From positions 62,001-126,000 of the forward strand of contig NZ_FOAB01000002.1 of the NCBI RefSeq assembly GCF_900109375.1: 64,000 nucleotides of DNA, given 5' to 3'. Position 1 is the first letter of the stretch, and each line of letters opens with the position of its first letter. The stretch comes from Aquimarina amphilecti. Lineage in GTDB: Bacteria; Bacteroidota; Bacteroidia; Flavobacteriales; Flavobacteriaceae. The position numbers were made by a program, and so were the translations under genes. Of the stretch, positions 25,059-28,297 are shown in pieces. A model generated the notes under the pieces. That model was not told where the DNA came from. It saw only the letters and a list, made by a program, of their open reading frames with translations, and ran no database searches.

Positions 25059-26060
25059 CTATGGTACTTCAATTTCATTTACAATCTTGTTAATGATATC
25101 TTCAGAGGTTACATTTTCAGCTTCAGCTTCATAAGTGATACCTATACGGTGACGCAATACATCATGTACTACCGCACGAACATCTTCTGGAATTACATAT
25201 CCTCTTCTTTTTATAAAAGCAAAACATTTAGCTGCAGTCGCCAAATTAATACTTCCACGTGGAGATGCACCAAAACTGATTAGTGGCTTTAAATCTTCAA
25301 GACCATACTTCTCAGGATAACGAGTAGCAAAAATGATATCCAAAATATATTTTTCTATCTTTTCATCCATGTACACTTCTCTTACCGCTTTTTGAGCTGT
25401 AAGAATCTGTTCAATAGACACTACAGGATTTACTTTTTCAAAACTACCCTTAAGATTAGCTCTTACAATTAACTGTTCTTCTTCTAACTTAGGATAATCA
25501 ATTACTGTTTTTAGCATAAAACGGTCAACCTGGGCTTCTGGTAATGGATATGTTCCTTCCTGCTCTACCGGATTCTGAGTTGCCATTACTAAAAACGGTT
25601 TATCTAATATAAACGTTTCATCTCCAATAGTTACCTGCTTTTCTTGCATAGCTTCTAATAAAGCACTCTGCACCTTAGCTGGGGCACGGTTGATCTCATC
25701 AGCCAGCACAAAATTTGCGAAAATTGGCCCTTTCTTGATTGAGAAGTCATTCTCCTTCATATTATAAATCAATGTACCTGTAACATCTGCAGGTAATAAA
25801 TCCGGAGTAAACTGTATACGGCTAAAACTTCCGTGAACAGCTTTAGACAATGTATTAATTGCCAAAGTTTTTGCTAATCCTGGAACACCCTCTAACAAAA
25901 TATGTCCTTGTCCCAGCAATCCAATTAGCAAACGTTCCACCATGTGTTTCTGACCTACGATTACCTTATTAATCTCTAATGCAAGTAAATCTACGAATGC
26001 AGATTCTCTCTGTATTTTCTCATTGATTGAAGCAATATCAATAGAACTATTTTCTTCCAT
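25059..26060 (-). CDS. MoxR family AAA+ ATPase, first gene of the Bat operon
   Basis: A 333-residue cytoplasmic ATPase with Walker A GVPGLAKT (58-65), Walker B LADEINRAP (119-127) and a sensor region MATQNPVEQEGTYPLPEAQVDRFM. MoxR ATPases act as chaperones for VWA-domain complexes, here BatA and BatB. It opens a nine-gene minus-strand operon running to batE at 16220. A clear promoter was not found in the 260 bases upstream, which also hold a candidate structured RNA for the divergent gene. Confidence 0.95.
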   Translation of the reverse strand: MEENSSIDIASINEKIQRESAFVDLLALEINKVIVGQKHMVERLLIGLLGQGHILLEGVPGLAKTLAINTLSKAVHGSFSRIQFTPDLLPADVTGTLIYNMKENDFSIKKGPIFANFVLADEINRAPAKVQSALLEAMQEKQVTIGDETFILDKPFLVMATQNPVEQEGTYPLPEAQVDRFMLKTVIDYPKLEEEQLIVRANLKGSFEKVNPVVSIEQILTAQKAVREVYMDEKIEKYILDIIFATRYPEKYGLEDLKPLISFGASPRGSINLATAAKCFAFIKRRGYVIPEDVRAVVHDVLRHRIGITYEAEAENVTSEDIINKIVNEIEVP

Positions 26061-26197
26061 CTATTCTTTTTTTTAAAAGCGTGAATTTAACATTCATGTT
26101 TCAGCATTGCAAATTGTTAAATTATTTTTCTTCTCCTTGTTAATTATAGGTTAAATGTGTCTTCTTAAAATACGCTTACGCCCAAATTTTACAGTAT

Positions 26198-26303
26198 ATT
26201 TAGATCTTTTTACTGAAAAAGCGGACGTAACAATTTACATCGCCCTTAGCGATGATGTTTCTAAAAGACGAAAGTCTCTATGTTATGTTGCAAAAATCTA
26301 AAT
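26198..26303 (+). ncRNA. Candidate structured leader RNA (nested stems, three-way junction)
   Basis: Four pairings nest consistently on the + strand. An outer 12-bp stem with one bulged C pairs 26198-26210 with 26292-26303. A 9-bp stem (two G-U) pairs 26224-26232 with 26281-26289. Hairpin CATCGC/GCGATG is at 26238-26254, and hairpin AGAC/GTCT at 26266-26277 carries a GAAA tetraloop. The two hairpins sit side by side inside the inner stem, making a three-way junction. The element ends 17 bases before the ATG of the SDR gene. The GNRA loop favours the + strand. It could be a cis-regulatory RNA or an independent small RNA; I do not match it to a known family. Confidence 0.45.
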
Positions 26304-26320
26304 GAAAAATCATCAATTTT

Positions 26321-27073
26321 ATGAAAACAGCATTAATAACTGGAGCTACAAGTGGTATAGGAAAGTCTACGGCTTATGAATTCGCCAAAAACCATATAAA
26401 TCTAATACTTTGTGGAAGACGACAAGAACGATTAGATCAAATGAAATCTGAGTTAGGTAGCAATGTAAAAGTTCATACACTATGTTTTGATGTTCGGGAT
26501 AAAGAAAATGTTTTTAAAAACATAGAAAATTTGCCTCTAGAGTTTAGCAAAATAGACATATTGATTAATAATGCGGGAAATGCTCATGGTCTTGATCCAA
26601 TTCAGACTGGAAATTTGGATGATTGGGATGCTATGTTGGATATTAATGTGAAAGGATTATTGTATGTTTCTAAAGCAATAATTCCAAAAATGATTTCGCA
26701 AAAATCTGGTCATATCATTAATATCGGCTCTATAGCGGGTAAAGAAGTTTATCCTAACGGAAATGTATATTGTGCCAGTAAACACGCAGTTGATGCTATC
26801 AATAAAGGAATGCAAATAGATCTTAATAAACATGGGATTAAGGTTGGCGCAATTCATCCAGGATTAGTAGAAACAGAATTCAGTAATGTCAGGTTTAAAG
26901 GAGATGATCATAAAGCCGACACTGTTTATAATGGTTTTGATCCTTTGCGACCAGAAGACATTGCCGATATTATTAATTTTGTAATTACTAGACCTTATCA
27001 CGTAAATATTGCTGATCTTGTAGTTTTTCCGACTGCACAGGCAAACAGTACAATTGTAAACAAAAGTTTATAA
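26321..27073 (+). CDS. Short-chain dehydrogenase/reductase (YdfG-like)
   Basis: A 250-residue classical SDR. It has the NAD(P)-binding TGATSGIG (7-14), an Arg-rich segment CGRRQERL (31-38) that favours NADP, NNAG (83-86), and the catalytic Ser137, Tyr150 and Lys154 (YCASK). The nearest characterised relatives are YdfG/serine 3-dehydrogenase-type enzymes that oxidise 3-hydroxy acids or reduce their semialdehydes; the substrate here is inferred only. It lies directly behind the candidate structured RNA. Confidence 0.9.
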   Translation: MKTALITGATSGIGKSTAYEFAKNHINLILCGRRQERLDQMKSELGSNVKVHTLCFDVRDKENVFKNIENLPLEFSKIDILINNAGNAHGLDPIQTGNLDDWDAMLDINVKGLLYVSKAIIPKMISQKSGHIINIGSIAGKEVYPNGNVYCASKHAVDAINKGMQIDLNKHGIKVGAIHPGLVETEFSNVRFKGDDHKADTVYNGFDPLRPEDIADIINFVITRPYHVNIADLVVFPTAQANSTIVNKSL

Positions 27074-27157: not shown

Positions 27158-28297
27158 ATGATTAATAAACGGCTTTTAATAAAAAATCTTTTAGCGCATA
27201 ATGATGAGAATAGTTTTTACGACAAAAAACGCAAGCTCAATATTGGCGAAAAAGAAGGTAAAGCTAAATTTCTAAAGCATATCTGTGCTCTTTCCAATTC
27301 CAATCCTAAAAACAACTCATATATTGTTATTGGCGTTGAAGATGAAGATAATCAGATAATAGGAGTAGACTTTTTTGATGATAGTAAAATTCAAAATCTG
27401 GTGAATGCCTATCTTTCGAATCCTCCAATTGTAGCTTATGAAAACATTCCGTTCCCTCATTTACCTGGTGACAAAGTGGTAGGACTAGTATCGATTCGTT
27501 CACAAGAAGGAAAATTATGCTCTCTTCGTAAAAACATCTGGAAATATTATGGCGGAAGCGTGTTTTTTAGAGATGGAAGCATCAGTATGCCTAAAGTATT
27601 TGATATAGAAATCAAAGATGTCAATTCAGAAATTGTAGACTCTATAGAAAGCCATGCTCAAAACAATATTGAATTAACATTAGACGGAGTATTTGATTTT
27701 ATGAGCTCTCGAAAAGATTACAATCCAACATATAAAGTATTTAAAGAATACTTTGTAGTATGCTGGTCTGCTAAAGAAAAAAGAGTAAATGAAGAGATAT
27801 ACTACTCTAGAGTTGATATTGCATTAATTAATGAACAAGTAAAATTATTTTATTCTCAATTTGATGAGGTAAGTATTTCCATTACTGATGAAGAGTTTAA
27901 AATTATAGAATATGTCCAACTCGGACTACAGGACAACTATGATTATTATCCTTTAGAGGAAGTCACTATAAAGTTTAAGAATAATGTGAGCTACGATATT
28001 GAAAGCAGACTATTATTCAAACCTCCACAATTTGATCGCAAAACTTTACATCATCTTTATAACAGTAATAACGCCTTAATAGAGAAGTTAAAAAAGAAAA
28101 TGCCGCTAACAAAAAATGAACAAAAAGATATTCTAAACCTTCCTGTGACTTATTTATTATGTTATTTTAATGATTTTAGTGAAGCAAAAGATAAATTAGA
28201 AGAAGCTAAACCTTACCTAAAAAACTATCTTGATAATAAAGTATATTCACTATATAAAGAAAGTATGAGGATCTTGAGAAAAGTAAGGTACAATTAA
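27158..28297 (+). CDS. AlbA_2 (Schlafen-type) domain protein, putative nucleic acid or ATP binding
   Basis: A 379-residue soluble protein. The first ~140 residues match the AlbA_2/Schlafen-AAA_4-type domain: an early EGK-rich segment, FLKHICALSNSNPKNNSYIVIGVEDEDNQIIGVDF, and a later VVGLVSIRSQEGKLCSLRK. The remaining 240 residues carry no motif I recognise. Proteins with this domain are often annotated as ATP-binding or as DNA-binding regulators. It is 84 bases after the SDR gene on the same strand and probably ends at the long hairpin downstream. I know of many flavobacterial homologues but no assigned role. Confidence 0.78.
   Translation: MINKRLLIKNLLAHNDENSFYDKKRKLNIGEKEGKAKFLKHICALSNSNPKNNSYIVIGVEDEDNQIIGVDFFDDSKIQNLVNAYLSNPPIVAYENIPFPHLPGDKVVGLVSIRSQEGKLCSLRKNIWKYYGGSVFFRDGSISMPKVFDIEIKDVNSEIVDSIESHAQNNIELTLDGVFDFMSSRKDYNPTYKVFKEYFVVCWSAKEKRVNEEIYYSRVDIALINEQVKLFYSQFDEVSISITDEEFKIIEYVQLGLQDNYDYYPLEEVTIKFKNNVSYDIESRLLFKPPQFDRKTLHHLYNSNNALIEKLKKKMPLTKNEQKDILNLPVTYLLCYFNDFSEAKDKLEEAKPYLKNYLDNKVYSLYKESMRILRKVRYN

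Follow-up and report, generated by a model that had tools for sequence, protein, structure and literature searches.

A candidate ECF-type promoter and a conserved stem-loop upstream of the moxR-bat operon in Aquimarina

The conserved feature between moxR and the SDR gene in Aquimarina amphilecti is probably a distal promoter on the minus strand, served by an ECF sigma factor and driving the moxR-bat operon, with an RNA that begins with a short stem-loop. An ECF-family sigma factor would recognise TGCAACA-N15-CGTC (26292-26267), and minus-strand transcription would start near 26260, about 7-8 bases past the -10 box. The RNA would thus open with the stem-loop at 26254-26238, and its leader of approximately 200 bases would pass a PhoP-type box and a housekeeping promoter before reaching moxR. 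Most likely, the stem-loop would shield the mRNA at its 5′ end or tune its fate. The features of the locus are listed in the table, with positions given in the window, the stretch of 64 kb of A. amphilecti DNA that was analysed.

Features of the moxR-SDR region. Positions are those of the window; basis: evidence for the assignment.
Feature	Position	Strand	Basis
moxR, AAA ATPase, first gene of a bat-type operon	25059..26060	-	PF07726, E 4e-65
Probable housekeeping promoter of moxR, TTTGC ... TAAATTCA	26082..26113	-	motif conservation
TTAACC-N5-TTAAC direct repeat, putative PhoP-type response-regulator box	26139..26154	-	motif match
TATATTTA, likely -7 element of a promoter for the SDR/AlbA_2 genes	26195..26202	+	function inferred
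Outer stem	26198-26210/26292-26303	+	proposed earlier, position confirmed
Inner stem, 9 bp	26224-26232/26281-26289	+	proposed earlier, position confirmed
CATCG hairpin	26238-26243/26249-26254		proposed earlier, position confirmed
Stem-loop CAUCGC-UAAGG-GCGAUG, likely close to the 5′ terminus of the moxR transcript from the ECF-type promoter	26238..26254	-	compensatory changes
GAAA hairpin	26266-26269/26274-26277	+	proposed earlier, position confirmed
-10 box CGTC, ECF-type promoter	26267..26270	-	15 bases from the -35 box in 42/42
-35 box TGCAACA, ECF-type promoter	26286..26292	-	42/42 alignable relatives (plus-strand TGTTGCA, one single-base variant)
SDR gene	26321-27073	+	PF00106
SLFN/AlbA_2 protein gene, 3′ of SDR	27158-28297		PF04326

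ECF promoters have a -35 element of the AAC type and a -10 element of the CGTC type, separated by a spacer of 15-17 bp. Named relatives retrieved with MoxR point to Aquimarina as the genus, and among 66 species the moxR-SDR intergenic region could be aligned in roughly two of every three. Both boxes, an AAC-core -35 and a CGTC-type -10, are kept in all 42 aligned sequences, single-base variants included, and the spacer is exactly 15 bases long in every one of them while its letters vary. The pattern TGYAAC-N16-CGTY precedes moxR in 61/64 genomes of the genus, including some whose intergenic region could not be aligned by BLAST, versus 3 of 3200 shuffled regions. The distance from the end of the -10 box to the moxR ATG ranges from 121 to 277 bp and is most commonly 204-207 bp. 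In a deeper clade CGTT replaces CGTC with the spacing unchanged. Among 78 further moxR loci the site was found once, in a MAG titled Aquimarina; it therefore seems to have been added, at the level of the genus, to a control region that is older. From its sequence, 26292-26267 is a candidate ECF sigma-factor promoter driving moxR/bat that is lineage-specific and in itself of an ordinary kind. A literature search for ECF control of moxR or for Aquimarina start sites returned nothing relevant.

A closely similar motif recurs throughout the genus. Most genomes of the genus typically have 8-15 sites of the form TGTAACA-N15-CGTC, compared with usually 0-3 of the reversed pattern, and an N13 spacing of the same two boxes stays at the control level. 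In the A. amphilecti genome the spacings of TGYAACA-N8-22-CGTC peak at 15 (13/37, P 4e-7). The 15-base sites are intergenic and located mostly 17-120 bp 5′ of start codons; one of them precedes an ECF sigma gene (PF08281, PF04542). TGTAACA-N15-CGTC is a candidate ECF motif with a likely autoregulated sigma gene. The TGCAACA-N15-CGTC form was not enriched genome-wide over its control; since the TGTAACA form is, the moxR site may use a different ECF factor than the TGTAACA set. About a dozen deep-clade or incomplete genomes are without the TGTAACA set, and several of these keep the moxR site with CGTT. A regulon with TGTAACA-N15-CGTT in the CGTT clade was rejected, as this pattern was not enriched over its control. 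In L172-L178, relatives from a deeper clade, the site upstream of moxR has the form TGCAACA-N15-CGTT, and their genomes lack the set of TGTAACA-N15-CGTC sites. The ECF sigma gene and the small ORF that follows it are located at L074:1578-2586 (+), with TGTAACA-N15-CGTC 51 bases upstream; this gene is a candidate for the autoregulated ECF factor of the motif. The small ORF, which has no match in Pfam, could encode an anti-sigma factor.

An experimental precedent within the family comes from Flavobacterium psychrophilum. According to the main text of the study, the SM6 motif there accompanies start sites that were mapped by experiment and carry a CGT -10 box of the ECF type; an ECF sigma/anti-sigma pair and envelope functions are found among the SM6 genes, and one SM6 promoter drives the putative regulatory RNA Rfp11 (PMC9723704). 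The conserved CGT -10 box is common to SM6 and the moxR site; that main text gives no -35 consensus and makes no mention of moxR (PMC9723704).

Further candidate control elements lie closer to moxR. The TTAAC repeat has an 11-bp period and, with few exceptions among the Flavobacteriaceae loci examined, precedes moxR by approximately 60-145 bp. In Riemerella anatipestifer, EMSA showed that PhoP binds DNA upstream of moxR, and the PhoP motif has the core TTTAACA (PMC9603813), which the repeat at 26139-26154 matches. The R. anatipestifer system thus shares with the present locus a TTAAC-type box upstream of moxR and the bat operon as target (PMC9603813). The difference is the additional ECF promoter proposed here, which lies further upstream and, among the loci examined here, was found only in Aquimarina-type genomes. 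The predicted housekeeping promoter is represented by TTTGC-N17-23-TTAAATTCA in 44/64 genomes and by TTAAATTCA or GTAAATTCA in 62/64; it would fit the Bacteroidetes consensus TTTG/TAnnTTTG with mismatches.

The sequence-only reading had proposed a structured leader RNA with a three-way junction at 26198-26303 on the plus strand, and compensatory base changes were therefore sought in each of its stems. They were found in the CATCG hairpin and are lacking in the outer stem, in the GAAA hairpin and in the inner half of the 9-bp stem, which argues against a conserved three-way junction. Across the 42 distinct orthologous sequences from the genus Aquimarina, which are related by descent so that counts do not equal independent events, 95% of cells are paired in the CATCG/CGATG hairpin, compared with 63% in the outer stem, 65% in the inner stem and 46% in the GAAA hairpin. 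RNAalifold retains the CATCG hairpin alone, on either strand. Changes on both sides of the surviving hairpin convert G-C to A-U in 17/40 sequences and C-G to U-A in 2.

The stem-loop starts about 12 bases after CGTC, which probably makes it the 5′ end of the moxR leader. The 44 bases after the box have a mean z of -2.1 at 49 moxR sites with CGTC; the value is -0.3 at 15 further ECF-like sites in this genome, and it is -0.1 in the CGTT clade, where some lineages lack a clear hairpin. This contrast points to a hairpin that is specific to the moxR leader and not a general property of ECF promoters; the idea of one hairpin shared by every ECF site of the genome was rejected on the mean z of -0.3. 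Accordingly, the CGTC clade has a hairpin in a constant position behind the -10 box, with arms that change in compensation, and this is not general in the CGTT clade. Stem-loops at the 5′ terminus stabilise mRNAs of the E. coli ompA type. The hairpin predicted for the moxR leader is likewise short and should lie a few bases from where transcription begins; its sequence is unrelated to that of ompA.

The same CATCG..CGATG dyad might instead act as DNA, as an operator that overlaps the ECF start site and binds a dimeric repressor, with no RNA hairpin formed. Symmetric changes preserve a DNA dyad as well, and the place near the start site would suit a repressor. Yet the loop length is variable, and unrelated hairpin sequences occupy the same offset in L162 (CATTGC/GCGATG), L165 (TAGTGCA/TGCGCTA) and L166 (TTAGTGCC/GGCACTAG), a replacement that a sequence-specific protein would not tolerate. 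GAAA loops are frequent when the hairpin is read on the minus strand. Together, the variable loops, the replacement hairpins and the minus-strand GAAA loops favour an RNA hairpin and make the operator unlikely. The hairpin itself pairs on both strands; we assign it to the minus strand because of the promoter direction and the GAAA loop.

A second alternative places the RNA on the plus strand. The site of TATATTTA reads TAT[AC]TTTA and is near-invariant in the 42 relatives, and TAAA[TG]ATA is present in 56/64 moxR upstream regions. TATATTTA is probably a promoter element of the plus-strand genes, and no clear -33 box was found to accompany it. With TATATTTA as a promoter element, the plus and minus transcripts would overlap by about 55 bases. 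A leader or small RNA might start from this promoter near 26207; its core would be the hairpin, and part of the genus would add a terminator in which a T-run follows the RTGTTGC arm. Besides the conserved promoter element, this is consistent with the outer five pairs of the inner stem (GACAU/GUGUU), which can be formed via G-U in nearly all aligned sequences, with a TGTTGCA followed by a T-run in many relatives, and with spacers that fold slightly better than shuffles on both strands when relatedness is left uncorrected. However, the T-run is missing from the clade of the window, the 5′ arm facing TGTTGC is not conserved, the outer stem and the GAAA hairpin are not kept, and a terminator would not predict a spacing of exactly 15 bases, so that we regard a plus-strand RNA of this kind as quite improbable. 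The pairing of plus-strand GACAU (26224-26228) with GUGUU/AUGUU at the -35 box via G-U is unexplained by the promoter model. Seen over the relatives, 26224-26228 and 26285-26289 read GACRY/RYGUU and can pair on the plus strand in nearly all of them, with changes that are almost only transitions.

The larger fold can indeed be drawn with all four stems in the window, and they largely reappear in the minimum-energy fold predicted for the plus strand (MFE -22.6 kcal/mol, z -3.3). The minus strand is equally foldable (MFE -22.9, z -2.9). Among 1598 stretches of 106 bases sampled along the window, 2.3% have a z of -3.3 or lower and 4% reach an MFE of -22.6. The earlier statement that such nesting is hard to get by chance was thus overstated, as picking the best 106 bases regularly yields such folds. 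The sequence is present as a single copy according to a genome-wide repeat search. Flavo-1 and 6S-Flavo (RF01685) are flavobacterial RNA families of the kind proposed; a search of the element against Rfam, these two included, gave no match at gathering or relaxed thresholds, which rules out both identities. The best sub-threshold match in the window scored 20 bits against a cut-off of 81, and the 6S-Flavo gene of this genome is located elsewhere.

The GAAA hairpin coincides with the -10 box and spacer of the candidate minus-strand ECF-type promoter, and the -35 box, again with spacer bases, is shared with one arm of the inner stem. The larger plus-strand fold is mostly a by-product of the promoter sequence. 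A conserved three-way-junction leader of the SDR/AlbA_2 genes is highly improbable and largely refuted by the pair counts and by the single hairpin that RNAalifold retains, even though the fold exists in this genome and its closest relatives, L010 and L011, show folds of similar quality. A plausible riboswitch-like call is thereby corrected: a promoter with a fixed spacer can, once folded, mimic RNA helices.

If the ECF promoter model is right, the MoxR/Bat system, which is widespread but little understood, would gain a concrete link to an ECF stress response in marine flavobacteria, and the bat (aerotolerance) operon would offer a clean case of an ECF input specific to one lineage. We tentatively consider a more detailed version, which is possible but rather doubtful as a whole: the Aquimarina moxR leader would combine a lineage-specific ECF promoter with a 5′ stem-loop (or a released short RNA) that is selected for structure and replaced in sequence, coupling envelope stress to the bat operon, with SDR/AlbA_2 transcription overlapping face-to-face.

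The genes on both sides are as follows. Genes for a DUF58 protein and for BatA/VWA proteins are located 3′ of moxR. On the other side, the SDR gene followed by the AlbA_2 gene was correctly described by the sequence-only reading, and its suggestion that the element is a cis-regulator of these two genes fares less well, as the conserved sequence better fits a promoter on the opposite strand that drives moxR. A small ORF parts the element from SDR in some relatives. In L012 (1703-1861, +) it encodes a probable membrane protein of 52 residues (MKKLSLFSYIIAGFFFIAAF...) with no match in Pfam; comparable ORFs between element and SDR were seen in several further relatives, for example L036 and L037, and are absent from the window. 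The SLFN/AlbA_2 protein carries a C-terminal DUF5929. In L177 and L178 the divergent neighbour of moxR resembles the AlbA_2 gene, without SDR.
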